Assembly: GCA_937922015.1 (NCBI GenBank)
Contig: CAKZVB010000302.1
Span: forward strand, 1 to 33,421
Reading direction: 5' to 3'
Length of the DNA stretch: 33,421 nt
DNA from: an uncultured Granulosicoccaceae bacterium
GTDB lineage: Bacteria > Pseudomonadota > Gammaproteobacteria > Granulosicoccales > Granulosicoccaceae
How positions within the stretch are numbered: the first letter of the stretch is position 1; every line of letters begins with the position of its first letter. This document shows, one piece after another, positions 11,707 to 33,421 of the stretch. Position numbers and translations under genes: made by a program. Under the pieces are notes generated by a model. It made no database searches. It worked only from the letters and a program-made list of their open reading frames with translations, and had not been told where the DNA came from.

Positions 11707-12585
11707 TTACGTACCTGACACATAGTTTTGTAAGAATAATGTAAATATAAACGCAGCAATCGCAAATGCCATAATGATAAGGCTGCTTGTCGAGGCAATA
11801 AAGATCGCGTCTACCAATGAGATTCCGGCAATCATTGAAACTACGGCTGTAGGTATATCGCCGGCCTCTTTTCGTTTAATCAGATACAGACAAAAACAAA
11901 CCCAGAGCACAAATATGAGTAGCGGCGCCCACACTTGCGCGTCAGTGTTGGCAGCGTAAATGCCGAAGATGGCTGGCACTGCAATAAAAGCGACTGGCCA
12001 CATGTTTTTAACCTCGCCCAGGTTTTCCTGTTTTGCTGTGTAGGTCAGGCCGATCAGATAGGTCAGTAATACAATCGCGCCTATATACACCATGACAGAA
12101 GGGCTTCTGGTGGCCGTGAAGGCCGCGCACAGGTACACAAACAAACGGCATAAACCCATAATGACCGGGCTGTACGGGTTATTTTTGTGCCACATGTTGT
12201 ACAGCACAATTGAACCGCACAACAGTATAGCCATTGCAGTGGCAATCAGCGCACTGCCGCTGCCCCAGCCCAGTGCTGCAAGCAACGTGAAAAAAATCGC
12301 GCCAACCAGCAACGTGAAGCCTGCAGAGAAAACTTCTGCGGCTTTTATGTGTCCTGCCGGTATCGGTCGTTCGGGGCGTTCCTTTGCATCTATCTCACGA
12401 TCAAAGGCGTCGTTTAAAAACATACCGCCGATATAGGCCATCGACATGGCAACGATGAGGGTTGCTATGTTCCAGTTAAGTGGATTGACGCCCGCAAGCA
12501 CAACCCCTGCAAGTGTGTTGCTCCAGACTGTCGGCAGGTTTGACACTCTGCCCAGCGTTAAAAAGGTTTTGGTATTCCAGCTCAT
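11707..12585 (-). CDS. eboC: EboC, UbiA-family prenyltransferase
   Basis: 292 residues with about eight or nine membrane segments. The first aspartate-rich motif of UbiA enzymes is intact as NDAFDREIDAKERPERPIPAG (N58, D59, D62, D66), which binds the Mg-prenyl diphosphate. The second motif is replaced by YTAKQE, as in the EboC branch as I know it. UbiA enzymes join an isoprenoid chain to an acceptor in the membrane. Its ATG overlaps the eboE stop (ATGA, 12582-12585), so the two are translationally coupled. Acceptor and prenyl donor are unknown; the idi gene in the other half of the cluster makes isoprenoid supply a credible link. Confidence 0.9.
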   Translation of the reverse strand: MSWNTKTFLTLGRVSNLPTVWSNTLAGVVLAGVNPLNWNIATLIVAMSMAYIGGMFLNDAFDREIDAKERPERPIPAGHIKAAEVFSAGFTLLVGAIFFTLLAALGWGSGSALIATAMAILLCGSIVLYNMWHKNNPYSPVIMGLCRLFVYLCAAFTATRSPSVMVYIGAIVLLTYLIGLTYTAKQENLGEVKNMWPVAFIAVPAIFGIYAANTDAQVWAPLLIFVLWVCFCLYLIKRKEAGDIPTAVVSMIAGISLVDAIFIASTSSLIIMAFAIAAFIFTLFLQNYVSGT

Positions 12586-13784
12586 GACAATTGTTGTTTT
12601 ACCCAGTTGAGTTCGCGGCCTATTGCCTGGTCGATGGTTTGGTTTTTATAAACATCGGGCAGAACATTCCAGGTGTAGGTTTCAACTTCGAGATGTTCGC
12701 TGATGGGCTGAACTTTATGCAGTGCCAGGGCTTCGCGAATGAAAAATTGTGTTGAGGAAAAATCGCCCAGATCATCCAGAAATACAGGTACATGAAAATG
12801 AACCCGCCACTCTCTGGGTTTGTTGTCATTGCTGAGTTTTTCAAAGGCTTGTGGCAGATCGGTAAAACGATTGATTTTGCCGTCGTGGTTTTCGACCACC
12901 TGATGCAGATAGACTTCATCGATGAAGGGGCGCAGCAGTTCTGCACTTTCAACGGTTACGTTGTTCAGACGCAGGCCGGCGCTTATTTGTAGCTTGCCGA
13001 TTTTTATTTGTGCCTCTCTCAGAGTGCTAAGGCAAGTAGCTGCATCTTCAAACTCTACCGCGGCGTGGCACAGATCAAGGCAAAGTGTCAGGTGTTTGCG
13101 CAGCAGTTTTTCTGACTCGGAAGCGCTGATATTCAGCTCATTTTGCAGCTGCTTAACGGAGGCCGGGCCGAATAGGCTGTTATTGAAAAAGGTTATCGAT
13201 TCTTCAATGGTTTCCAGAAAGCAGCAGGGCTCTGGTTCCAGCGCCAGCACGATGCACGTGTTTTGTGTTCGATCAAGGTTGGCCAGGTGCGCACAGTGAC
13301 TGACCATATTGGCAGCCATTAAGGCAATATCGTCGTCATTTTGCACGCAGGCCTTAAATGCCCCGGGTACGGTGCTGATGCTGCCGGTTTGACCGGCCGG
13401 CAGAAATTGGCCGAATATATCGGCCAGTTGGTTGGTATAGCGCAAACGTTCCTGATCTTTCCAGTCCGGCAGATAGACATCTTCTTTGACGCGCGTGCCG
13501 TGAAAGGGGCCGTAAGGAAAACCATTGATCGTAAATACGTAGCTTTGGTGATCTGCCAGCAACTGTTTGAAATGTGACATCGCGTCAGGTTTAGAAAGAG
13601 CGGCGGCGGCGGCGGCAGAAAGACGCAGGCCGATGCCGAAATCGCCATCGACTTGAACTTCTTTTCGGACCAGCGGGATGTGTTTTTGCACATTGTGCAG
13701 AACCTCATCCCAGCTTTCGCCGGGGTGAATGTTGGAACAGTAGGTGAGGTGGTCAACCGAGCCGGTGTGATTTTTCAAGCGCAT
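12582..13784 (-). CDS. eboE: EboE, metabolite-traffic TIM-barrel protein
   Basis: 400 residues of the xylose-isomerase/AP-endonuclease-2-like TIM-barrel superfamily, in the EboE branch. The N-terminus (HLTYCSNIHPGESWDEV) is the distinctive opening of this family. Other family stretches are FTINGFPYGPFHG, LALEPEPCCFLE, LCLDLCHAAVEFED and FHVPVFLDDLG; acidic and histidine residues in these (E-x-E, D-x-C-H, H-x-H) are probable metal ligands. It lacks a signal peptide. Its function is known only at the level of the ebo cluster, reported to move a metabolite precursor across the membrane in cyanobacteria. A run of six alanines (GCN/CGG-rich DNA near 13600-13620) is low complexity. A sigma-70-like promoter precedes it at 13827-13855. 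Confidence 0.92.
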   Translation of the reverse strand: MRLKNHTGSVDHLTYCSNIHPGESWDEVLHNVQKHIPLVRKEVQVDGDFGIGLRLSAAAAAALSKPDAMSHFKQLLADHQSYVFTINGFPYGPFHGTRVKEDVYLPDWKDQERLRYTNQLADIFGQFLPAGQTGSISTVPGAFKACVQNDDDIALMAANMVSHCAHLANLDRTQNTCIVLALEPEPCCFLETIEESITFFNNSLFGPASVKQLQNELNISASESEKLLRKHLTLCLDLCHAAVEFEDAATCLSTLREAQIKIGKLQISAGLRLNNVTVESAELLRPFIDEVYLHQVVENHDGKINRFTDLPQAFEKLSNDNKPREWRVHFHVPVFLDDLGDFSSTQFFIREALALHKVQPISEHLEVETYTWNVLPDVYKNQTIDQAIGRELNWVKQQLS

Positions 13785-13981: not shown

Positions 13982-15364
13982 ATGCAGAAAACTCTTGTTA
14001 TTTTGGTGGTTGGGCTCAGCCCTGCGCTGGTCGGGGAACATACACCCCACCTGCTTAAATTGTCTCGCAGGGGTGGGTTGCGGCCACTGACCGCGGTGAC
14101 ACCGGCGGTGACATGTACGGCACAGTCAACCTTGTTAACCGGTGAAATGCCATCGGAGCACGGGATTGTCGCCAACGGCTGGTACTTTCGCGACTTATCA
14201 GAAGTGTGGTTGTGGCGACAATCAAATCGACTGGTGGGTGGCGAGAAAATATGGGAGGCGGGTAAAGCGCGCGATGCAGAATTTACTTGTGCCAAAATGT
14301 TCTGGTGGTACAACATGTATTCGACCGCAGACTGGAGTGCCACCCCGCGACCAATGTACCCGGCAGACGGTCGAAAAATCCCTGACCACTACGCCTATCC
14401 TGCAGAACTTCACGACGAGCTAGACGCCAAATTCGGCCAGTTTCCACTGTTTAAGTTCTGGGGGCCGGCAGCGGATATCACGTCCAGTAAGTGGATCTCC
14501 GATGCTACGCGCCACATGATGGAAACCCGCAATCCAACACTTACGCTCACTTATCTGCCCCATCTTGATTATAACCTGCAGCGGCTGGGTCCGGATCTGG
14601 AACATGCTGACATTCAGCGTGACCTGAAGCAGGTAGATGAGCTATGTGGTCAGCTAATAGAAACCGCAGACGGCCTTGGGCAGAATATTATCGTGGTCTC
14701 GGAATATGGCATCACACCTGTCACTGATGCGGTGCATATTAATCGGGAGTTGCGCAAAGCCGGCTTGTTAAAAGTCAGGGTAGAAAAAGACAGGGAGCAA
14801 TTTGATGCCGGTGCCTCAGATGCATTTGCCGTGGCCGATCATCAGCTTGCCCATGTCTATGTGAATAACCCCGCCTGTCTGGAAAAAACCCGGGAGCTGC
14901 TAATGCGGCTGGACGGCATTGAACATGTTCTGGACGACGAGGGTAAAAAACAATGGGGGCTTGATCATGAGCGTGCCGGTGAGTTGGTGGCTATTTCGCA
15001 GGCTGATCGTTGGTTTAGTTATTACTACTGGCTGGATGATAATCGAGCACCGGACTACGCGCGCACCGTTGATATACATCGAAAGCCAGGTTATGACCCC
15101 GTAGAACTGTTTGTAGATCCGGAAATAAAAGTGCCGATGGCCGCCATTGCATCAAGGTTGGCGAGAAAGAAGATGGGCTTTAGAACGCTGCTTGATGTCA
15201 TTTCGTTGAAAGATACGCAAATTGTCAGGGGCTCGCACGGTCGTCCCACCGACGAGCCGGATCATGGTCCGGTGCTGATCAGTTCGAATGCACAGCATTT
15301 GCCCGAAGGTGAAGTACACTCTGCTGAATTTAAATCACTGGTCTTAAAACACATCTTTGAGTAG
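13982..15364 (+). CDS. eboF: EboF, alkaline-phosphatase-superfamily protein
   Basis: 460 residues related to nucleotide pyrophosphatase/phosphodiesterases (NPP) of the alkaline phosphatase superfamily, EboF branch. The region of the nucleophile is PAVTCTAQSTLLTG, with T44 as the candidate. Compared with NPP enzymes several metal ligands are changed: the first Asp is Val10 (LVVGLSP), the usual SDHG is SEYGI, and the PD..GH motif is LDYNLQR. The final GSHGRP histidine remains. It may be a specialised or inactive member. There is no obvious signal peptide. It reads away from eboE across a 197-base shared region; TATGAT lies just before the ATG, so a very short leader is possible. It is complete and not coupled to the Bat operon downstream (289 bases). 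Confidence 0.9.
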   Translation: MQKTLVILVVGLSPALVGEHTPHLLKLSRRGGLRPLTAVTPAVTCTAQSTLLTGEMPSEHGIVANGWYFRDLSEVWLWRQSNRLVGGEKIWEAGKARDAEFTCAKMFWWYNMYSTADWSATPRPMYPADGRKIPDHYAYPAELHDELDAKFGQFPLFKFWGPAADITSSKWISDATRHMMETRNPTLTLTYLPHLDYNLQRLGPDLEHADIQRDLKQVDELCGQLIETADGLGQNIIVVSEYGITPVTDAVHINRELRKAGLLKVRVEKDREQFDAGASDAFAVADHQLAHVYVNNPACLEKTRELLMRLDGIEHVLDDEGKKQWGLDHERAGELVAISQADRWFSYYYWLDDNRAPDYARTVDIHRKPGYDPVELFVDPEIKVPMAAIASRLARKKMGFRTLLDVISLKDTQIVRGSHGRPTDEPDHGPVLISSNAQHLPEGEVHSAEFKSLVLKHIFE

Positions 15365-22552: not shown

Positions 22553-23299
22553 CTACGGAGAAAATTTCTTACTCAATACATATGCAGTTATCGACTTACG
22601 ATCTTCAAGCGAAAAAACGCTCTTCCATGCAGGCATTTTCCGAAATCCGTTAGTCGTACGGTCAAAAACAAAATCCGCCGTATAAGAAGCTGGTTTTAGT
22701 TTTGGAGCTTTACCCGGGTAGGCTGAGTTGCCATGGCAATGGCGGCATTGTTTGCCCCACAGTTCCCCGCCAGTTGCGATAGCGTTTTCATCGCTGAGAA
22801 ACTCATCGGTGAATGCCGGGTCTTCCTCTTCGTCTGCGGTTTTTACTACAGGTAATACGGCTGCAGCGGCGGCATCTGCCGATACTTCAGTCGCTGATTC
22901 AGGTACATACGCCGGAGAAAACGTAATCAGGAATGACAGCAGGTCTTTGATCTCCTGTTCTTTTTTTAATCCTTCATAACCCATAATGGTACCCGGTACA
23001 TAGCGTGCCGGACCGGCCAGAAATATATACAGGCTTTTTTCAGTCCATAACAACTCGTCTTTAGCGCCTTTATCTTTCATGGCGGGGGAGAAGTTGCTAT
23101 ATCCGTGGGCGGTTCCGGCGATACGGCCGAACACATGGTTAAGTGTTGGTCCGACTCCGTGAACTGCGCCTTCTCCGATGGCATGGCAGGCAACACATTG
23201 TTTAAAAAGTTCTTCGCCTTTGACCGGGTTTGGCGCGGTGGTGGCGATTGTGGAGTAAAACGTAAGAGCAATAACTGCGACGGCTGGAAATAGTTTCAT
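22553..23299 (-). CDS. Di-haem cytochrome c
   Basis: 248 residues with an N-terminal signal peptide (~1-21). Two class I cytochrome c domains are present. The first has CVACH (C35, C38, H39) and a likely axial Met106 (IMGYEGL). The second has CRHCH (C185, C188, H189) and a likely axial Met222 (RKMPAWK). Between them is an Ala/Glu-rich linker (~131-165). It should be a periplasmic electron carrier. It follows the PQQ-type dehydrogenase gene on the same strand, 203 bases on, past a hairpin, and is a natural candidate electron acceptor for it; this pairing is inference. Confidence 0.92.
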   Translation of the reverse strand: MKLFPAVAVIALTFYSTIATTAPNPVKGEELFKQCVACHAIGEGAVHGVGPTLNHVFGRIAGTAHGYSNFSPAMKDKGAKDELLWTEKSLYIFLAGPARYVPGTIMGYEGLKKEQEIKDLLSFLITFSPAYVPESATEVSADAAAAAVLPVVKTADEEEDPAFTDEFLSDENAIATGGELWGKQCRHCHGNSAYPGKAPKLKPASYTADFVFDRTTNGFRKMPAWKSVFSLEDRKSITAYVLSKKFSP

Positions 23300-23502: not shown

Positions 23503-24807
23503 TTATTCAGCTGGAACGATCTTATAGATTGTGTCCAGCGAACCTACAGGGCCAGTTGTGATAGAAGTGAGCGCGTAGACTTCGCCGGCAGAATCCTGTG
23601 CAAACGCAAGGATATAAGGGCGATCACCGGGCATGTTAGTTACCTCGGTTTCTGCCATTTCCCAGTTTCCGTCTTCACCTTCGGTGCCAATAAAGATTTG
23701 TCCCTTCATGGAAGCGAATGACTGGCTCCAGTCACCGAATATGTATTTACCATCCCAGTCGCCTACACCACCACGATAGACGTAGCCACCTGTCACTGAA
23801 ATACCTTTGCAGCCGTCAGGCTTGGCGGTGCAGTTGTTGTATTCCATTACCGGGTTTATCAGACCCTCAGTGTCGCATGCAGCCGGATGATCGTCCGGTG
23901 CTGTATATTCGAAGCAATGCGTCGCTTCCATCTTGCGCCAGCCGTAGTTACCGCCTTTCTCGATAACATTGACTTCTTCATAGCTGTTTTGCTGCACATC
24001 GGCACACATCAATTTGCCGTCACCAGTGTCGAAAGAACAGCGCCACGGATTACGTAAACCATAAGCCCAGATTTCCGGCTGTGCTTCTGCGTTACCAACA
24101 AACGGGTTATCTGAAGGGATGCCGTAGTTTTTACCGTTCTCGGATTTGTTTACATCAACGCGTAAAATTTTACCAAGGTGCGTAGTCAAGTCCTGACCGT
24201 TACCTTCAGTAACGTTGTGGCCGATACCCCAGTCATTTGCGTATCCGCCATCGCCCATGCTGATGTAGAGCATGCCGTCGGGTCCGAAATCGATCCAATG
24301 ACCGTTGTGGTTGAATTGTGGCCAGTCAGTGGCAGTGATAATTCGCATAGAAGCGGGGTTGGCTACATTAGGATCAGTTTCAGAAACGGTGAATTCTGCA
24401 ACAGTGTTGGTGTGATCCCACCAGAATTCTTTGCCTAAATCTGCATCGAAGTCCAGGTGTCCGCTGTAGGCGACATAGAACTTACCGTTTGATTTAAAGT
24501 CCGGGTGGAAGGTAAGGCCCAGCAGGCCGCGCTCATCGAAGTCTGAAAATTGTTTGACAATAAGGTTGCGAATGTCCAGAAAAGGGGTTGCTTCAAGTTG
24601 TCCATCAGCGTTGATGACTCGTACACGACCGAATTGTTCAATGACAAACTTTCGATCATCGCCTTCGGGCTGAACCATCGCCAGTGGTGCGTTGACGCCG
24701 GTAACGTATGGCTCAAGTTTGATTTTAACAGCCTCTGCATGAGCGTTTGCACCCATGATCAGGCCGGTAGTTAGTGCAGATGCCAAAAATAGCATTTTGA
24801 AATGCAT
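23503..24807 (-). CDS. PQQ-dependent sugar/aldose dehydrogenase-type protein
   Basis: 434 residues with a Sec signal (cleavage near AHAEA, ~24). The body is a six-bladed beta-propeller of the glucose/sorbosone dehydrogenase (soluble PQQ dehydrogenase, YliI-like) family. The catalytic histidine lies in NHNGH (H167), followed by WIDFGPDGMLYISMGDGG; LGKILRVDVN and YGLRNPWRCSFD are family blocks. The NHNGG of most relatives is NHNGH here, a small departure. Cysteines in the C-terminal third (CFEY, AACD, NNC, DGCKG) suggest disulfides. The start at 24807 has a perfect AGGAGG site; an upstream extension to 25074 is non-coding in character. Electrons probably pass to the downstream cytochrome c. No PQQ-synthesis genes are in the window, so the cofactor is from family knowledge. 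Confidence 0.88.
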   Translation of the reverse strand: MHFKMLFLASALTTGLIMGANAHAEAVKIKLEPYVTGVNAPLAMVQPEGDDRKFVIEQFGRVRVINADGQLEATPFLDIRNLIVKQFSDFDERGLLGLTFHPDFKSNGKFYVAYSGHLDFDADLGKEFWWDHTNTVAEFTVSETDPNVANPASMRIITATDWPQFNHNGHWIDFGPDGMLYISMGDGGYANDWGIGHNVTEGNGQDLTTHLGKILRVDVNKSENGKNYGIPSDNPFVGNAEAQPEIWAYGLRNPWRCSFDTGDGKLMCADVQQNSYEEVNVIEKGGNYGWRKMEATHCFEYTAPDDHPAACDTEGLINPVMEYNNCTAKPDGCKGISVTGGYVYRGGVGDWDGKYIFGDWSQSFASMKGQIFIGTEGEDGNWEMAETEVTNMPGDRPYILAFAQDSAGEVYALTSITTGPVGSLDTIYKIVPAE

Positions 24808-25016: not shown

Positions 25017-25604
25017 CTAGCCAAGCACCGCGTTGATCATTTGCCGGTGGTCTTTCATGTAGATTTTGAACCATTCAGTGAAGGTGTTGGGGCGATGTTC
25101 AATTTGTTGCATTATTTCCGGGATGGTAAGCCACTCGACAGCGCCAACTTCTACAGGGTTAAACAGTTCCACATTATGTGATTCATTGTGTTTGCCGTGA
25201 AAGCAGTGCACGTGTTCATTTTCGAACAGTTCGCCGACTTGAGCGGCATAGTCGATTGAGCCGAACAAATTTAATGGTACCTGCCAGCCAAGTTCTTCAT
25301 CCAGTCTGCGCTGAGCGCAATCGACTACGGTTTCGTTCCATCTCGGATGAGAGCATACGGTATTGGCCCACAGCCCGGCTGAGTGGTATTTGGTTTTCGC
25401 CCGTTGTTGCAGTAACAATTTGCCATGGTGAAAAACAAAAATTGAAATAGCAACGTGAGGAATGTTGCTCACGTGTGCTTCGAGCTTGTCTATTGCGTAG
25501 AACCGGTTTGCTGAAAGATTTTCAATAGCGGTAATCTGCTCGTGCAGACCGATGTCTTGCAGTGCGCTTTGAGGCGCTGCACTCTTGTTCGATTGGGTGA
25601 TCAT
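25017..25604 (-). CDS. idi: Isopentenyl-diphosphate delta-isomerase, type 1
   Basis: 195 residues of the Nudix-fold type 1 IPP isomerase, which interconverts isopentenyl and dimethylallyl diphosphate. The catalytic cysteine is C84 in ANTVCSHPRWNET with metal ligand H86, and the catalytic glutamate lies in FENEHVH (E128 or E130). The Nudix-like helix follows as DCAQRRLDEELGW. Its ATG overlaps the eboB TGA (25601-25604), so it is translated with the ebo operon. Gammaproteobacteria using the MEP route do not strictly need Idi, so a gene placed here suggests it serves the EboC prenyltransferase. That link is inference from position. The first ~30 residues are extra relative to the short core. Confidence 0.95.
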   Translation of the reverse strand: MITQSNKSAAPQSALQDIGLHEQITAIENLSANRFYAIDKLEAHVSNIPHVAISIFVFHHGKLLLQQRAKTKYHSAGLWANTVCSHPRWNETVVDCAQRRLDEELGWQVPLNLFGSIDYAAQVGELFENEHVHCFHGKHNESHNVELFNPVEVGAVEWLTIPEIMQQIEHRPNTFTEWFKIYMKDHRQMINAVLG

Positions 25605-26527
25605 TCGATAATTAGATTGCCGGCGTTACGTTTTACAGCGGAGTCCTGCACCAGAGGCTCGCGACCGCCTCGCAGGATTGAATTGCCTTCGTATACCGTT
25701 CGCTGATCAATGGCGGCAGGATTTAACCAGTCGTCTTCCTGCATTTGTCCGCTCTGGCCATAGGCCGACAGCGCATTCTGGTAACACACCAGGCGCACGT
25801 GCTCTTGCGGAATGCCGCGTTCCAGTGCCAGTTTTGCCGTCTTTGCGACGCCCAGGGGTTCTGATATACCCCAGTCGCAGGCTGAATCCACCATAATTCG
25901 TTCAGCGCCATATTCGGCCAGTATGTCAACCATTCGCGCATTGCCCATCTTAGTTGACGGGTAAATAGAAAATGCAGCCCAGTAGCCTCTGTCCAATACC
26001 TCGCGAACGGTTTCCTCGTTGTTGTGATCAACGATGATTTTTGTAGGGTCCATGCCGTGCTCTTCGCAGACGTCCATTGATTTCGTGGTGCCGCGTTTTT
26101 TATCACGATGCGGGGTGTGAATCATGACGGGCAGATCCAGCTCTTTGGCAAGTTCCAGTTGTAGTCGGAAGTACTTGTCTTCGAGTTCTGTTTGTTCGTC
26201 GTAGCCGATTTCGCCAATACCTACTACGCCCTCTTTTAACGCGAAGCGCGGTAGAATTTCCATCACCGCTTCTGCGAGTTCTTCGTTGTTGGCTTCTTTG
26301 GAATTTAATCCTACCGTGCAATAGTGGCGTATACCGAACTGGCCGGCCCTGAAGCGTTCGAAGCCGATTATCGCTGACAGATAGTCAATGTAGGTACCCA
26401 CATGGGTACGGGGTTGCCCGACCCAGAAGGCAGGTTCTATTACCGCGACGACGCCTGCTGCTGCCATGGCTTCATAATCATCAGTGGTACGGGAGATCAT
26501 GTGTGCGTGCGGGTCGATAAACATCAT
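25601..26527 (-). CDS. eboB: EboB, TatD-family metal-dependent hydrolase
   Basis: 308 residues, a TIM-barrel amidohydrolase of the TatD family. Metal ligands are visible in order: the HxH pair H7/H9 (DPHAH), the glutamate in GIGEIGYDE, histidines in MIHTPHRD and VDHNNEE, and the aspartate in VDSACDWG. It is cytoplasmic. EboB is part of the ebo metabolite-traffic set, whose precise chemistry is not known. The start at 26527 is preferred because ATG overlaps the eboA TGA (ATGA, 26524-26527); a second Met follows directly. The stop overlaps the idi start in the same way. Residues after ~270 (QMQEDDWLNPAAID...) belong to the EboB-type extension. Confidence 0.92.
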   Translation of the reverse strand: MMFIDPHAHMISRTTDDYEAMAAAGVVAVIEPAFWVGQPRTHVGTYIDYLSAIIGFERFRAGQFGIRHYCTVGLNSKEANNEELAEAVMEILPRFALKEGVVGIGEIGYDEQTELEDKYFRLQLELAKELDLPVMIHTPHRDKKRGTTKSMDVCEEHGMDPTKIIVDHNNEETVREVLDRGYWAAFSIYPSTKMGNARMVDILAEYGAERIMVDSACDWGISEPLGVAKTAKLALERGIPQEHVRLVCYQNALSAYGQSGQMQEDDWLNPAAIDQRTVYEGNSILRGGREPLVQDSAVKRNAGNLIIE

Positions 26528-27417
26528 GCGCTGGTACCTGAGTCTTGCAATTGTTGTTCGGCAATAGCGTCCCACGTTATTGCGCCATTGGCAATGCTGG
26601 CGGCTGTTTCCGGGTAACGTTCAACGATTGCGGCGGCTCGTGGATCGCTGCATTGCGTCAGTGCCAGCACCCCTGCCTGGTGTTCGGTTAGCACATTTGA
26701 TTCGGCAACGCGTTGCAGATCTTCGATCATTGAACCCTTTGCGAAAGGGCCAACGCAGCGCCAGAGTTCGGCGGTAACAACGCGCCCGGCGGCCCAGCGC
26801 TCATGAGCATAGTCACGTAGAATTGTGGCAAGTTCGGCATTGGCACGCTTGTCGAGTCCCTGAATAGGTGACAAAGTGCTGTCGATAAAAAGCGCTTTCA
26901 GCACCATGTGATTCCAGCGGTTTTCATCGAAGTGGATGGCCGGGTAGAGGTTATGATGCGCGATGGCTTCAAACACGGCGCGCATGTTGGTGCGCAGTCC
27001 TTCGCCAATTTGTCTGGATAGTTTTTCACTATGCGGATACAGCGCTACCCCGCTGTACAGTGCAATTGACTCTGCCAGATCTGCGTTTCGACATAGATCA
27101 ATAATCGTATCGCTGAATGTTGCGGGGTCTTTTTCTGCCAACCGGCACAACACCGCAATTCTAGCCGCGGTATCTATGCTCCAGCCGGTGGGGTTCCAGT
27201 CTGGCAAAACGCTGTTGGCGTCGGCAAGTTCGGTGGCAGTGGGGTTGAGGTCGGTGCGACCCAGCTTGCGAGGGATCAGTCCCAGGGTAATGTGTAATTC
27301 ACGGTCTGAATTGGACGTCAGCACTTTGTGCAACCGGGACTGAAACCAGTCCTGGTGTTCGTCGTTGAGGCGACGCTCCAGCCATTGCTCTAATAGTGCA
27401 GCTGCTGTGCTTGTCAT
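26524..27417 (-). CDS. eboA: EboA domain protein
   Basis: 297 residues, mostly alpha-helical, no membrane segment and no recognised catalytic motif. It corresponds to EboA, the family-defining protein of ebo clusters: the block ALYPHSEKLSRQIGEGLRTNM, then IAHHNLYPAIHFDENRWNHMVLKALF is characteristic. Function is unknown; a scaffold or carrier role has been considered only from its company. It starts 37 bases after eboD without a strong ribosome site and overlaps eboB by four bases. Together with eboB, eboD and idi it forms one leftward operon. Confidence 0.9.
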   Translation of the reverse strand: MTSTAAALLEQWLERRLNDEHQDWFQSRLHKVLTSNSDRELHITLGLIPRKLGRTDLNPTATELADANSVLPDWNPTGWSIDTAARIAVLCRLAEKDPATFSDTIIDLCRNADLAESIALYSGVALYPHSEKLSRQIGEGLRTNMRAVFEAIAHHNLYPAIHFDENRWNHMVLKALFIDSTLSPIQGLDKRANAELATILRDYAHERWAAGRVVTAELWRCVGPFAKGSMIEDLQRVAESNVLTEHQAGVLALTQCSDPRAAAIVERYPETAASIANGAITWDAIAEQQLQDSGTSA

Positions 27418-27454: not shown

Positions 27455-28678
27455 TCAGGAACGTCTCAGTTTAAGCCATTCTATGCTTTGCGCAACCAGT
27501 GTGTCATCCATCTTGTGTACCTCGATGCCGCGTCCAAGGGCATCGAGTAAGGTAATGGTCAGTGCTCCGCCCAGATGTTCACGAAACTCGGTCAGGCCCT
27601 TTAGTACTTCCAGCTGGCCGTCTGTGGTGGTTGATTCAAGTGCTGCGTGCCATAACTTAAAACCGAGGTGTTCAAGCAGAAAGCATACTCGTTCATCGGC
27701 ACCCTCAGGCAGTAAACCGCACAACACTGAATAACGGGTATCCAGAGCCAGCCCGATCGCAACTGCTTCGCCGTGGCGCAGGTGATAACGCGTTATAGTC
27801 TCCAGCTTGTGGGCTGCCCAGTGGCCGTAATCCAGAGGTCTGGCGCTACCTGATTCGAAGGGGTCGCCCCCATGTGCTATCTGTTGCATGTGCAGTTCTG
27901 CACACCTTTTGATCATGTACTGCATGGCGTTTTCGTCAAAAATGGCCAGATTGTCGGCGTTTTGTTCAAGCCATTCGTAGAATTCGGTATCGCGAATCAG
28001 TGCGACCTTCACTGCTTCTGCCATACCGGCTATCTTGTCGCGTTGTGAAAGAGAGCGAATGTAGTCGTAGTCATTCAATACGGCGAATGGCGGTGCAAAA
28101 GTGCCGGTATAGTTTTTCTGACCAAACAGGTTGACGCCGTTTTTAACGCCTACGCCTGAGTCATTCTGAGACAATACGGTGGTGGGTATACGAATATGCC
28201 TGATGCCGCGGTGCGATGTGGCAGCTGCCAGGCCCACAGCATCCAGTAGCGCACCGCCGCCAATTGCAATAACGTATGAGTGTCTGTCAATATGGTAGTC
28301 GGCAATGGCTTTTTGCATTTGTTCTATAAAATGCAGCTCGGCCTTTATTTTCTCGCCGGCGGGCATAGCAATTGGCGGGGTAACCAGCTCAATTGAATCG
28401 CTGTGATAGTTTATATAGCCTTGGATTTCAGTTGGCAGTTGAGGCCTGACTTCCAGTAGCCCACTGTCAACAAAAACAATCACCCGGTGGCGTTTGTCTG
28501 ATTCCAGATGTGTCAGGGTTTGCAGTAAGACTTTGTTTTCAGGGGCAAACAGATGATCAGTGAAATACACAGGGTATTCAAAGGGTACTGAAAAACGCTG
28601 CCATGAAACGGTACCATTGGTGCTTGCTGCACTGATGGCGGCTACCCCGGCTTCTTTTTGTTGATCTTTTTCTGGCAT
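27455..28678 (-). CDS. eboD: EboD, 3-dehydroquinate-synthase-like sugar-phosphate cyclase
   Basis: 407 residues in the 3-dehydroquinate synthase/sugar phosphate cyclase superfamily. Visible motifs: GGGALLDAVG (NAD binding), RIPTTVLSQNDSGVGVKNG, GMAEAVKVALIRD, and RHGEAVAIGL with the metal histidine. The QNDSGVGVKNG form, rather than the usual DHQS version, marks the EboD or EVS-like branch. The housekeeping AroB is therefore not implied. It is the first gene of the eboD-A-B-idi operon. The start at 28678 begins the conserved part; an extension to 28801 would overlap the promoter at 28712-28741. Confidence 0.92.
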   Translation of the reverse strand: MPEKDQQKEAGVAAISAASTNGTVSWQRFSVPFEYPVYFTDHLFAPENKVLLQTLTHLESDKRHRVIVFVDSGLLEVRPQLPTEIQGYINYHSDSIELVTPPIAMPAGEKIKAELHFIEQMQKAIADYHIDRHSYVIAIGGGALLDAVGLAAATSHRGIRHIRIPTTVLSQNDSGVGVKNGVNLFGQKNYTGTFAPPFAVLNDYDYIRSLSQRDKIAGMAEAVKVALIRDTEFYEWLEQNADNLAIFDENAMQYMIKRCAELHMQQIAHGGDPFESGSARPLDYGHWAAHKLETITRYHLRHGEAVAIGLALDTRYSVLCGLLPEGADERVCFLLEHLGFKLWHAALESTTTDGQLEVLKGLTEFREHLGGALTITLLDALGRGIEVHKMDDTLVAQSIEWLKLRRS

Positions 28679-28711: not shown

Positions 28712-28741
28712 AGAATAATAACTGCGCGGAGTTGCTGTCAA
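28712..28741 (-). promoter_or_regulatory. Sigma-70-like promoter for eboD-A-B-idi
   Basis: On the minus strand a consensus TTGACA (28736-28741) is followed after 18 bases by TATTCT (28712-28717). The predicted leader is about 27 bases. The same perfect -35 hexamer precedes the other half cluster (eboE-C). Confidence 0.5.
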
Positions 28742-28857
28742 CACGAAGGCACAAGGAATATGAAAATTCGCCCACCTGTGCACGTTCTGCCACCCTTGCA
28801 CTTATCGTAGTATTGTCTACGTTGCTTACACATCGTTACTGGAATTCAGGAAATAAT

Positions 28858-29226
28858 ATGCGCCTTTTAAATATAATATTGTGCTTGATTATGATGTTGT
28901 TTATAGCGGTGCAGTTCAACGATCCTGACGGACCCATGTGGATGGCAATTTATGCCATACCCGCTGCATGGGCTGCGATTGCAGCTTTGCGTCCTCAATG
29001 GCTTTCGCTGAGAATAGCTCATGTACTGTTGCTGTTGTGTCTTTTTGCGGCGGTTAGCGGCATGATTTATTACTGGCCCACCACACCCGGTTGGTGGCGG
29101 CAGGAAATATGGTGGGAAGTGGAAACCGCACGTGAGGGCATGGGAATGATGATTGTGGCTATTGTTCTTTTAGTGGTCTGGTTTAGTCGACCACGCCGGA
29201 ATCTCATTGTAGATTCGACATCTTGA
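28858..29226 (+). CDS. Transmembrane protein, Transmemb_220 family
   Basis: 122 residues with four membrane segments. The first loop has VQFNDPDGPMWMAIYAIPAAWA, the signature of the Transmemb_220 family (unknown function). The WWEVETAREGMGMMI stretch in the third part also fits. An AGGA ribosome site precedes the ATG at 28858. It diverges from eboD and is followed four bases later by the DUF2927 gene. It may be a regular membrane component unrelated to ebo; role unknown. Confidence 0.85.
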   Translation: MRLLNIILCLIMMLFIAVQFNDPDGPMWMAIYAIPAAWAAIAALRPQWLSLRIAHVLLLLCLFAAVSGMIYYWPTTPGWWRQEIWWEVETAREGMGMMIVAIVLLVVWFSRPRRNLIVDSTS

Positions 29227-30116: not shown

Positions 30117-31625
30117 TTAATCTGTCCGTGCGACTGCCGGGACTTTCTTAAAAAAAGCACCGTAGACGCTGCCAATGATAGTCATTGCGCCAGCGATTAA
30201 TAACCCCAGAGCGATAGGTCTGCCCAGGAAGCCGCTAAATTCAAAATGCAGCATTTGCATAGCTTGTGCAAAGGTTTGCTCGCCGATTTTTCCAAGGATC
30301 AGTCCCAACACAATTCCTGCGACCGAATAGCCTGAGCGACGCAGGAAGAATCCCGCAACACCGGCGACAAACATAACGATCACATCAATGGTCAGGCCAC
30401 GCACTGCATAGGCACCAACCGTTGCAAGCAACAGGATCATCGGGGCGAGAAACTGAAATGGAATGCGCAACAGATTGACGATGGTTTTAGCTTCAAGGAA
30501 GCCGACCAGCAAAATAGAGACGTTAGCAAAAAACATCGCAGAAAATACCACCCAGACCAGGTCGGGGCTGTTGATAAAGACCAGTGGACCCGGTTCCATA
30601 TCATGCATTTGAAATACCCCGACCATCATCGCTGTAAGCGCGCCACCCGGCAGACCCAGTGCCAGCAGCGGAATCATGGCGGCTCCGGTAGCTGCATTGT
30701 TTGCGGTCTCTGATGAAATCACACCTTCTATCTCGCCTGTGCCGAACTTCTGTTTGTTTTTTGACCAGCGCGCCGCCTCGTTGTAACCCATAAAGGCCGC
30801 CAGGGTAGCGCCAATGCCCGGTAGTATGCCGCAGAAAAAACCAATGATTATCGATCTGATAACGGCGATTTTTTGCATCCAGAGTTCTTTAAAAGTCGGA
30901 AAGTCGACGCTTAGCTTTGGTGCTTTGTAGGCGCCGGTGGCTTTTTTCTCCGCCTGTATGAATATTTCCGACACGGCAAAAAATCCCAATATCGTAGGGA
31001 TAAAGTGAATGCCTGCAGCAAGGTATGGCATATCAAAGTTGTAGCGTTCAATGCCACCAACAGGGTCAAGCCCGATAACGGCGATCATCAGTCCCGCCAT
31101 GATGGACAACCAGCCCTTCCAGAAGGTCTTGGCACCAACGCTTGCCGCCACTGCCAGACCGAAAAACACCAGCGCAAAAATTTCTGGCGGACCGAAGGCG
31201 GAGATCGCCCAGCCTGCGATAGGGGCGGTTGCAAACATCATGATCACGCAGGACACCACGCCACCAATGGCAGAACACATGACAGCAGCACCGACTGCTT
31301 TGCCAGCTCTGCCATCGAGGGTCATGGGGTATCCGTCGAAAGCGGTGGGGGCGTTTTCAGGTGCACCGGGGATATTAAATAAAATGGCTGTTATCGCACC
31401 GCCATAAACGCCTGTACAGTAAATAACAGAGAACAACATGATGCCGTGCTCGGCGCTAAGGTGGGCGGTAAACGGCAACAGGATCGCTGCAAGCGTTAAC
31501 ATGCTGACCCCGGGAATAGCGCCAAAAAGCATTCCGCCTATGACGCCACCGAAAAAAATTAGAATACCAACCGGGTCGCTAAAAAGCGTGGTGGTACCTG
31601 TTAGAAAATTGTTGAAGGTATCCAT
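30117..31625 (-). CDS. tctA: Tripartite tricarboxylate transporter permease TctA
   Basis: 502 residues, about 12 membrane segments. The two inverted family motifs are visible: GAIPGVSMLTLAAILLPFT and FNIPGAPENAPTAFDGYP in the first half, then GILPGIGATLAAFMGYN and SSETANNAATGAAMIPLLALGLPG in the second. It is the main channel of a TTT importer, working with TctB and the periplasmic TctC (Bug) protein. It follows tctB by six bases. Substrate is not deducible; known members take citrate, tartrate, terephthalate and similar acids. Confidence 0.96.
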   Translation of the reverse strand: MDTFNNFLTGTTTLFSDPVGILIFFGGVIGGMLFGAIPGVSMLTLAAILLPFTAHLSAEHGIMLFSVIYCTGVYGGAITAILFNIPGAPENAPTAFDGYPMTLDGRAGKAVGAAVMCSAIGGVVSCVIMMFATAPIAGWAISAFGPPEIFALVFFGLAVAASVGAKTFWKGWLSIMAGLMIAVIGLDPVGGIERYNFDMPYLAAGIHFIPTILGFFAVSEIFIQAEKKATGAYKAPKLSVDFPTFKELWMQKIAVIRSIIIGFFCGILPGIGATLAAFMGYNEAARWSKNKQKFGTGEIEGVISSETANNAATGAAMIPLLALGLPGGALTAMMVGVFQMHDMEPGPLVFINSPDLVWVVFSAMFFANVSILLVGFLEAKTIVNLLRIPFQFLAPMILLLATVGAYAVRGLTIDVIVMFVAGVAGFFLRRSGYSVAGIVLGLILGKIGEQTFAQAMQMLHFEFSGFLGRPIALGLLIAGAMTIIGSVYGAFFKKVPAVARTD

Positions 31626-31631
31626 GAGCGC

Positions 31632-32345
31632 CTATTGCAGCAGTGTGACAATCCAGTTGCCAAAGTTATAAAACGGGTTAATGTTACCGGTGGGTAGACC
31701 CACATAAAGCAGAGCTACAAAAAACAATAACAACAGGCCGTAAATTAGCGGCATTACCAAAGCCATTCTGCTGACTCTGCGTTCACCCATAAGTATCATT
31801 ACGCCAACAATGAACAATGGTGCCATGGCGTAGAAGCCCATGTCCTGAAGAACGGCTGCAAAAAATATGGGCAGCGCGAGTATAGCGCCAACATGATTGC
31901 GCCAGCCTAATATCAGGTACAAAATAAAAAGTCCGGCAGCGCACATCAGCTTCATATTTGCCAGAGTTTGTTCGCGGGCGTCTTCTGCTACATTCATTGA
32001 GCCGGTGATATATTCTGGCAGGTTCATGTAGACAAACGGTATGGCCAAAATGATTGCCGTGCTGGTGTACCAGGCAAGACCGCTATGTTCGGGGTTGGCT
32101 TCTGGCTCTTCATGAGCGGCTGCCATTTTGCTGCTTGATGTGGTATCACCGTTTTTATATTGATCGATAAGTTGACCAATCGCGGCAAGTGCCATAAGAA
32201 ACAAAATAGTACGCGGCCAAAGTGTGGCCCCGTATTTATAGATTTCGATTTCTTTGTTGAATTCAAATGAGTAGGCAAAAAAGATTGCTACCAGGGTCAG
32301 CCAGAAGGCAGCTTCTACGATATGGCTGGTTTTAAGCCTGCTCAT
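31632..32345 (-). CDS. tctB: Tripartite tricarboxylate transporter small permease TctB
   Basis: 237 residues with about four to six membrane segments, longer than the typical ~150 by a hydrophilic insert (~62-85, NGDTTSSSKMAAAHEEPEAN). The N-terminal block IEIYKYGATLWPRTILFLM is family-typical. The start at 32345 is preferred; upstream in-frame Met codons would lie under the hairpin at 32390-32419. It lies between tctC and tctA. Confidence 0.9.
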   Translation of the reverse strand: MSRLKTSHIVEAAFWLTLVAIFFAYSFEFNKEIEIYKYGATLWPRTILFLMALAAIGQLIDQYKNGDTTSSSKMAAAHEEPEANPEHSGLAWYTSTAIILAIPFVYMNLPEYITGSMNVAEDAREQTLANMKLMCAAGLFILYLILGWRNHVGAILALPIFFAAVLQDMGFYAMAPLFIVGVMILMGERRVSRMALVMPLIYGLLLLFFVALLYVGLPTGNINPFYNFGNWIVTLLQ

Positions 32346-32389
32346 AGGTTTCCAGGGTCGGGTTGAATTAGCATGGAATTGTTGTGTTA

Positions 32390-32419
32390 AAAAGGCCGGC
32401 GTGAACACGCCGGCCTTTT
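32390..32419 (-). terminator. Strong stem-loop between tctC and tctB
   Basis: A 13-pair perfect stem (32390-32402 with 32407-32419) with a four-base loop and GC-rich core starts 19 bases past the tctC stop; TTTTTAA follows on the minus strand. It has the form of an intrinsic terminator. As tctBA follow directly, it should allow partial read-through and give more binding protein than permease. Confidence 0.8.
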
Positions 32420-32438
32420 GGAGCGTTATGGAAAATTA

Positions 32439-33421
32439 CTATTTAACTTCCAGCCCCATCTCTTTGTATACCGCACGATAAGTGGCGACCGTTTCGTTGA
32501 TTAACTCTTTGCTGCCGTCGGTATCGCGGAAGCTTTCAATCAGGTTCATGTACTTGCTTTCGTTGTAGGCCTGATAGTCTTCCTGACAGTATGCTTTCTG
32601 GAATGCCCACTGCAGCCATTTTACGCGGTCTTCAGGGGTGCCGGCTTTGACAAAGAAACCACGGAAGCGAAACAGCGGATCAAAGTCCAGACCTGCGTCG
32701 GTCAGGCTGGGGACGTCTGCAAATGCCTCTGGCGCTTCTTTGAGGATAGTCAGAATGGGTTTGAACATGCCTGAATCAAGAAACTTGCGTACGTCACCGG
32801 GTTGCTCAAAAAGTGCATCTACCTGGCCGCCCGCTAACGCGCCATAGCGCGGAGCCCCTTTGTCAAAAGAGATCTGCTGGATCTGCATGCCTGTTGCATC
32901 AGTGATGAATTTCATCGTTATGCGTTCCATTGAGCCTTCTTTTGATACATTGGCAATAGTCGCTTTGCCGTCCTGCGCTTTTACCCATTCTACGAATGTT
33001 GGCCAATCGCTAAAGCGATCTTCCTTGGTGCGAATGTAGATTTGAGAAAAAGTAATTTGCGAGGTAACCAGCGGGATAAGGGCCTCGGCAGGGTTTGGTT
33101 TGGTCGAGTCCAGCGCATGTGCACTTGAGGCGTCGTCTATGTGTTCCAGTACCGTGTAGCCGTCAGCAGGTGTGGCCATGTAGGCCGTCATGCCGACAGT
33201 ACCTGAGCCGCCAGGCTTGTGATCACGGTTGATGGACACCTTGGTCAGGCCGGTAACCGCTTCCGCCATTGCCTGTGCAACCTGGCCGGAACCGCCAGCC
33301 GGGCCGTAAGGTACGATCATTGACAGCGCGCGTGCAGGGTAGCCATCAGGCCGTTCCATTTCAGCAGGCAGATTGTCAGTTGCGCACTCAGCGTAGGCAC
33401 TGCCAGCCGTAATAAAGGCAG
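32439..33421 (-). CDS. tctC: Tripartite tricarboxylate receptor TctC (Bug family), 5' partial
   Basis: At least 326 residues; the start lies beyond the window. Reading on past the Met at 33359 gives a signal-peptide end (AFITAGSAYA then ECATDN), so 33359 is not the start. The mature protein begins with YPARALSMIVPYGPAGGSGQ, the Bug-family ligand loop, followed by HKPGGSGTVG and further family blocks. It binds an organic acid in the periplasm and delivers it to TctAB. First gene of the leftward tctC-tctB-tctA operon. Substrate unknown; the tail (ESFRDTDGSKELI) offers no hint. Confidence 0.94.
   Translation of the reverse strand, partial: AFITAGSAYAECATDNLPAEMERPDGYPARALSMIVPYGPAGGSGQVAQAMAEAVTGLTKVSINRDHKPGGSGTVGMTAYMATPADGYTVLEHIDDASSAHALDSTKPNPAEALIPLVTSQITFSQIYIRTKEDRFSDWPTFVEWVKAQDGKATIANVSKEGSMERITMKFITDATGMQIQQISFDKGAPRYGALAGGQVDALFEQPGDVRKFLDSGMFKPILTILKEAPEAFADVPSLTDAGLDFDPLFRFRGFFVKAGTPEDRVKWLQWAFQKAYCQEDYQAYNESKYMNLIESFRDTDGSKELINETVATYRAVYKEMGLEVK

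Follow-up and report, generated by a model that had tools for sequence, protein, structure and literature searches.

Genes for isopentenyl-diphosphate (IPP) isomerase recur inside the ebo gene clusters of several groups of Alphaproteobacteria and Gammaproteobacteria, and the isomerases found there are of two types, type-1 and type-2, which have unrelated folds. The adjacency is thus not confined to the lineage in which a sequence-only reading of one stretch of DNA had drawn attention to it. That stretch, called the window here, is the whole of the 33,421 nucleotides analysed, in which the isomerase gene, idi, overlaps eboB. Judging from the sequence comparisons given below, we consider it fairly probable that idi works for the ebo pathway, either as a source of DMAPP or by raising the prenyl diphosphate available to EboC.

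The ebo locus of the window

The window corresponds to contig C302 of G000, a draft genome of 5.03 Mb in 332 contigs that is 80.6% complete and whose closest named relatives are Granulosicoccaceae. On its minus strand, eboD, eboA, eboB and idi run in a single direction from 28678 to 25017, with spacings of +37, -4 and -4 bases. The eboD gene (28678..27455) encodes a member of the sugar-phosphate-cyclase/3-dehydroquinate-synthase family (Pfam DHQ_synthase and DHQS_C); we chose the ATG at 28678 as its start, and the open frame extends to a GTG at 28801. The product of eboA (27417..26524) scored 160 with the NCBIfam model EboA_domain (cut-off, 50) and 234.8 with EboA_family, below the cut-off of 320. 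The eboB gene (26527..25601) encodes a TatD-type metallo-hydrolase of 308 amino acids (Pfam PF01026), and idi (25604..25017) a Nudix protein of 195 amino acids. Both ATGA overlaps described in the sequence-only reading were confirmed: bases 26524-26527 are common to eboA and eboB, and bases 25601-25604, which read TCAT on the plus strand, hold the TGA stop codon of eboB and the ATG start codon of idi. Among the 16 Chromatiales-order loci in which idi immediately follows eboB, eight have an ATGA eboB/idi overlap with an in-frame idi start, and one other has GTGA. A scan for sigma-70 promoters picked out bases 28741-28712, upstream of eboD, as a 10-of-12 match, and the six matches found in total do not exceed the number in shuffled sequences (4.3, standard deviation 2.3).

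All six ebo genes, eboA to eboF, are present in the window, and they are not contiguous, eboF lying 9.7 kb from idi and eboE 11.8 kb from eboB. The minus-strand genes eboE (13784..12582; a TIM-barrel protein scoring 456 with NCBIfam TIM_EboE, cut-off 250) and eboC (12585..11707; a UbiA-family prenyltransferase by Pfam UbiA) also share an ATGA overlap, and eboF (13982..15364, plus strand) encodes an alkaline-phosphatase-superfamily phosphodiesterase (Pfam PF01663). The halves of the cluster are parted by a MoxR-ATPase/DUF58/VWA block (about 15.6-22.3 kb) and by a minus-strand pair of genes for a glucose/sorbosone-dehydrogenase-type protein (GSDH; 24807..23503, Pfam GSDH) and a c-type cytochrome (23299..22553, two Pfam cytochrome families). 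Because relatives such as L049 have the same order in compact form (eboD-eboA-eboB-idi-GSDH-cytochrome, a reversed eboF, and eboE-eboC), the MoxR/VWA block looks like an insertion in the window.

The operon eboABCDEF (eustigmatophyte/bacterial operon) was defined by Yurchenko et al. (2016; PMC5133447), passages of which describe insertions as well as split and reordered clusters, and accept split clusters as ebo. Clusters of this kind occur in many bacterial groups, some algal plastids and one symbiont, and the cited papers, in the passages that concern the cluster, name no product. The window resembles the ebo clusters described there and by Klicki et al. (2018; PMC6282210) in carrying all six genes, and differs from those descriptions in the idi gene that overlaps eboB and in the recurrence of an isomerase in other lineages. 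The word "isopentenyl" is absent from the main texts of both papers, and our search of the main texts of open-access papers found none tying an IPP isomerase gene to ebo.

Recurrence of isomerase genes in ebo clusters

Within the family, EboB was searched at E 1e-20 in 36 genomes (G000-G035) and was found in 34, with no match in two non-family genomes examined alongside. Window-type idi, defined by 48% identity or more, is present in 25 of the 36 and ebo-linked in 20 of these 25; it adjoins eboB in 19 and eboA in G020, where eboB lies on a different contig from idi and eboA. In G004, G024, G027, G033 and G035, idi stands amid carotenoid or photosynthesis genes, as judged by similarity and inspection; in profile scans, a pufM hit exceeded its cut-off, and hits to crtC and prenyl synthase fell short of theirs. 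When the 25 idi genomes were searched for PufM, it was detected in exactly these five, on the same contig as idi in four and on a separate contig in G035. Linkage to ebo was therefore seen in 20/20 genomes without PufM versus 0/5 with it (Fisher's exact test, 1.9e-5, uncorrected for relatedness or missing sequence). Three further genomes (G016, G025 and G029) have PufM, lack window-type idi and fall outside the 25. The window genome has no PufM match and carries its idi in ebo, whereas in related phototrophs the orthologous gene has crtC-like, prenyl-synthase-like or puf genes as neighbours, in a photosynthesis or carotenoid cluster.

Beyond the family, EboB was used as the bait, so that the selection of loci was independent of idi, and genes were counted from a tblastn map because longest-ORF picking mislabels genes in GC-rich loci. 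An isomerase lay within the stretch in 21 of 80 EboB-selected loci (type-1 in 20, type-2 in one) and none did in 59. By order, assigned from NCBI ranks, the counts were 16/26 in Chromatiales, 3/6 in Hyphomicrobiales and 2/17 in Rhodobacterales, with no isomerase in the stretch in Oceanospirillales (0/13), Betaproteobacteria (0/6), Rhodospirillales (0/4), Geminicoccales (0/2) or others (0/6). Two Hyphomicrobiales loci (L056 and L066) have the order eboB-VTT-idi, VTT being a membrane-protein gene discussed below, and in the third (L116) idi is convergent with eboB; in Rhodobacterales, a type-1 idi is found 4 kb from eboB (L079) and a type-2 isomerase gene directly after eboB (L081).

A class-wide sample of 385 alphaproteobacterial genomes, not selected for idi, contained EboB in 11. 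The genome at the centre of the sample (G419; order eboA-eboB-type-2 isomerase) had been picked for its type-2 isomerase and was left out; seven of the remaining ten have an isomerase gene in the ebo cluster, type-1 in four and type-2 in three. The type-1 genes occur as idi-eboA-eboB in G636 and G730 and as eboF-idi in G580 and G765, and the type-2 genes as isomerase-eboF-eboD-eboC in G643, G736 and G808. Scores of the ebo type-2 isomerases with TIGR02151 were 352.3, 349.2 and 366.1, and 354.5 for G736, with a cut-off of 281.3; those of G643, G736 and G808 are all above it. The three genomes without a linked isomerase are G682, with idi on another contig, G733, in which none was found, and G536, which has no isomerase match genome-wide and was counted as without, its contig ending at eboB (L173 and L227). 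Of the nine isomerase genes detected in these ten genomes, seven sit in an ebo cluster. With the cluster taken as 20 kb of 2.9 Mb, the probability of that placement by chance is about 3e-14 when counted by gene, and about 3e-6 when we collapsed the cases to three of five lineages.

Linkage was sparser in the other samples. EboB was present in 14 of 369 gammaproteobacterial genomes, including the window's, and two of the other 13, G020 and G128, show linkage; in G128 the order is idi-eboA-eboB and the IDI is above the cut-off. In nine of these genomes a type-2 gene was sought in the ebo stretch only, and some stretches are cut by contig ends. In G438, also gammaproteobacterial, idi is divergent from eboF. 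A phylum-wide sample of 398 genomes added two ebo genomes, neither of them linked, and the isomerase of the window was the sole ebo-linked one in it. On plasmids, an isomerase was absent within about 9 kb of EboB in all 15 regions viewed, out of 51 matching records; these regions come from Alpha- and Betaproteobacteria, Actinomycetota, Cyanobacteriota, Bacteroidota, Deinococcota, Gemmatimonadota and haloarchaea. Many of the sampled assemblies are drafts with sequence missing, and members of one lineage do not count as independent cases. The survey of ebo clusters that the sequence-only reading had called for thus yields an adjacency that recurs, in most of the ten alphaproteobacterial genomes, and is missing from most of the gammaproteobacterial genomes and of the 80 loci and from every plasmid region viewed. 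Because, a few groups apart, an isomerase is lacking at most ebo loci examined, we regard it as an accessory part of ebo. The earlier suggestion that the pathway consumes an isoprenoid diphosphate and needs a balance of DMAPP and IPP is partly supported: an EboC homologue uses farnesyl diphosphate (FPP; see below) and the isomerase recurs, and against a general need are the 59 of 80 loci without one.

Other genes also recur beside ebo. A GSDH-type protein is encoded at 31 of the 80 loci (26 at 50% identity or more) and a c-type cytochrome at 28; the two recur in alpha-, beta- and gammaproteobacteria, and in G636 and G730 GSDH, cytochrome, idi, eboA and eboB lie in that order on one strand. From this recurrence, periplasmic oxidation may be tied to ebo. 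A VTT-domain (DedA/TVP38 family) membrane protein is encoded at 22 of the 80 loci, in 18 of them within 100 bases after eboB on the same strand; it follows eboB in many alphaproteobacterial clusters, and the two proteins scanned (L056 10938-11606 and L074 10930-11568) match Pfam PF09335. No homologue with a solved structure was found for the VTT protein. A passage in PMC10127716 describes some DedA proteins as flippases of undecaprenyl phosphate. A TMEM220-family gene, which in the window is divergent from eboD (28732..29226, plus strand; Pfam PF15071), is present at 34 of the 80 loci. A tripartite tricarboxylate-type transporter lies near ebo in the window (30117-33359; TctA and TctC by Pfam) and in L042, L043, L046, L098, L188 and L189, and a ferritin-like gene with an adjoining hypothetical gene was seen near ebo in L184, L186 and L187 (plasmids of Mycetohabitans, Gloeothece and Aureibacter).

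Isoprenoid supply, origin of the linkage and identity of the isomerase

We examined whether isoprenoid genes in general gather at ebo. Queries for dxs, HMG-CoA synthase, HMG-CoA reductase and mevalonate kinase had no match in 120 ebo stretches (2.0 Mb), in which L170 comes from the same genome as L081. One query each was used for dxs, the sole MEP-pathway gene in the query set, and for the mevalonate genes; the queries recover their own source loci and, for all but dxs, for which only its own locus is known, related loci as well. A polyprenyl synthase was found in one of the 120 (L163 4654-5601, beside eboC in G208; 53% to a further protein of polyprenyl-synthase type). With 0/120 for dxs and the mevalonate genes, we reject the idea that isoprenoid genes cluster at ebo in general; the independent samples and this control lead us to reject chance adjacency of idi and ebo as well.

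A housekeeping enzyme merely parked at ebo, serving quinones, cell-wall carriers and pigments with no special tie to the Ebo proteins, is the most serious alternative, although we think it unlikely. It would suit the phototrophic relatives, which keep the orthologue amid photosynthesis or carotenoid genes in all five genomes with idi and PufM, and it would suit G000 itself, in which neither IspH nor a type-2 isomerase was matched in the 80.6% complete assembly, so that its IDI may be the only isomerase there. IspH yields both IPP and DMAPP. It was matched in 17 of the 20 family genomes with ebo-linked idi (the exceptions being G000, G001 and G010) and in all 13 of the other linked genomes; because it makes both products, a separate isomerase is not strictly required in the IspH-bearing genomes, which speaks against a housekeeping role. 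G001 has a type-2 copy in a mevalonate-type operon (HMG-CoA synthase above its cut-off, reductase and kinases best matches below theirs) in addition to the type-1 idi beside eboB, so the ebo isomerase is not its sole one, and G736 has a second type-2 gene elsewhere in the genome. A parked housekeeping gene also sits poorly with the arrival of two unrelated isomerase families at ebo clusters. As a separate observation, G001 (L214, identified by profile) and G021 (L215, identified by similarity) each have a mevalonate-type operon that includes a type-2 IPP isomerase gene and gave no match to IspH, whereas most relatives searched have IspH; this is perhaps a pathway swap inside the family of the window.

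Repeated linkage might instead reflect one block, inherited or moved horizontally, and hence a single accident. EboB of the window is 83-87% identical to that of the alphaproteobacterial loci L056 and L066, the IDIs of which group with those of Granulosicoccaceae in the tree, and the type-2 isomerases of G643, G736 and G808 are 78-87% identical to each other, as a shared block would predict. A tree of 54 type-1 sequences, however, requires six changes of ebo linkage (gains or losses; 6-8 in bootstrap replicates), five of which are forced by well-supported branches. The type-2 enzymes, with their different fold, themselves form two groups: that of G419 shares 52-57% identity with enzymes of carotenoid clusters and 39-42% with the G643 group, and because it is nearer to the former, the sequences suggest two type-2 arrivals at ebo. 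Moreover, the isomerase gene occupies at least four different positions in ebo clusters. We therefore regard a single block as highly improbable.

The protein of the window contains a Nudix domain by Pfam, and all 12 PDB sequences that it matched are IPP isomerases. Its scores are below both curated NCBIfam cut-offs for IDI (91.5 versus 105.8 and 96.4 versus 127 bits), which are naming thresholds and describe no chemical property. In a comparison with E. coli Idi (1nfs), nine of nine positions are kept (H25, H32, C67, H69, E87, Y104, E114, E116 and W161), and the same nine are kept in the other 16 IDI sequences compared; Cys67 and Glu116 are catalytic in the E. coli enzyme, and metal ligands are also among the nine. 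On sequence grounds, divergent type-1 IPP isomerase is the most fitting name for the product: it shares the Nudix family and the nine active-site positions with the E. coli enzyme and differs in belonging to a divergent clade that scores under the curated cut-offs. Those low scores could be read as the mark of a Nudix hydrolase acting on the ebo product, which we disfavour as very improbable, since the nine positions, including Cys67 and Glu116, are not matched by the other Nudix protein of the genome, and since other ebo clusters hold type-2 isomerases and type-1 isomerases (G128, G438 and G730) above their cut-offs.

EboC, the putative ebo product and its meaning

The first Asp motif of EboC, NDxxDxxxD, is invariant at N58, D59, D62 and D66 in 14 of 14 EboC-type proteins from bacteria and archaea in our alignment. 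The second Asp-rich motif of UbiA enzymes is DxxxD; in the EboC of the window it is replaced by a KQEN-type sequence, and across the 14 proteins only a Glu in this region is kept at 90% or more. With the EboC equivalog model NF035940, the window protein scored 120.8, below the curated cut-off of 250, yet this was its best match, and it is 27% identical to EboC of Aureibacter, the one Bacteroidota EboC compared. In PMC9235831, Ubi-297, which is the Maribacter EboC, is reported to transfer farnesyl from FPP to 8-hydroxyquinoline-2-carboxylic acid in membrane fractions, and three homologues (Maribacter, Zobellia and Algoriphagus) to transfer farnesyl with Mg2+ present. The Bacteroidota EboC is thus active, the state of the second Asp motif in this family notwithstanding. 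Because these three farnesylate in membrane fractions, as described there, prenyl diphosphate is a real substrate of the EboC family, and the sequence-only reading is not undone by homologues that bind none. Like these enzymes, the window EboC, a predicted prenyltransferase, belongs to an ebo cluster and has the first Asp motif; its 27% identity to the Aureibacter protein marks the difference.

As to the donor, a passage of PMC6092422 suggests octaprenyl or undecaprenyl diphosphate for EboC in Phycorickettsia, and concerns precursor supply rather than an isomerase gene. Because no chain-elongating synthase recurs at ebo, either DMAPP or a housekeeping FPP-type pool is allowed. As to the acceptor, an isoprenoid-cyclitol product was already proposed by Yurchenko et al. 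(2016; PMC5133447) and a prenylated lipid carrier for periplasmic transport by Klicki et al. (2018; PMC6282210), in the passages on ebo function, and others have shown that the scytonemin precursor reaches the periplasm only with the ebo genes. The prenylated cyclitol- or sugar-type carrier of the sequence-only reading was therefore in large part anticipated by these proposals, and the acceptor data weigh against it: in the relevant part of PMC9235831, the best EboC acceptors measured are quinolines, not cyclitols, and no cyclitol is among those tried. On the cyclitol side, inositol-3-phosphate synthase is encoded in four of four Streptomyces (L185, L192, L193 and L194) and two of two haloarchaeal (L190 and L195) ebo-like plasmid regions viewed, confirmed by Pfam in the three of the six that were scanned, and an EboD match is absent from all six. 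A second cyclitol-forming enzyme in the role of EboD would fit a cyclitol product, as far as sequence can tell. The word "inositol" is absent from the main text of PMC5133447, and no record of such a replacement in Streptomyces or haloarchaeal clusters was found in the main texts of open-access papers. L185 and L192 also hold a gene annotated as ScyD/ScyE family.

Based on these comparisons, we propose that the ebo-encoded isomerase would interconvert IPP and DMAPP at the time and place of Ebo protein synthesis, and that EboC would thereby get enough allylic prenyl diphosphate, or DMAPP to prime it. EboD would form a cyclitol-type head group, if the acceptor is a cyclitol, and EboC would join the prenyl chain to it; EboA, EboB, EboE and EboF would trim or present the product, which may act at the membrane or in the periplasm as a carrier or cofactor. 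A more specific scheme is possible but, in our estimation, rather doubtful: ebo would build a dedicated, recyclable prenyl-cyclitol carrier or cofactor, primed by an isomerase of either fold, with its head made by EboD or inositol-phosphate synthase and joined by EboC; a DedA/VTT-type protein, where present, would return it across the membrane, and its users would be periplasmic proteins of the beta-propeller or cytochrome-linked kind (GSDH with cytochrome c, or ScyD/ScyE-like proteins). If this scheme were true, ebo would provide a lipid carrier or cofactor separate from the undecaprenyl phosphate system.

The repeated placement of a gene for isoprenoid building blocks inside the ebo cluster suggests a prenyl lipid as product or substrate of the cluster. 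Independently of UbiA homology, the recurrent isomerase, whichever its fold, is evidence that ebo draws on the IPP/DMAPP pool, and its recurrence points to bacterial groups, and to deletions of single genes, in which one may look for an ebo-dependent prenyl lipid.
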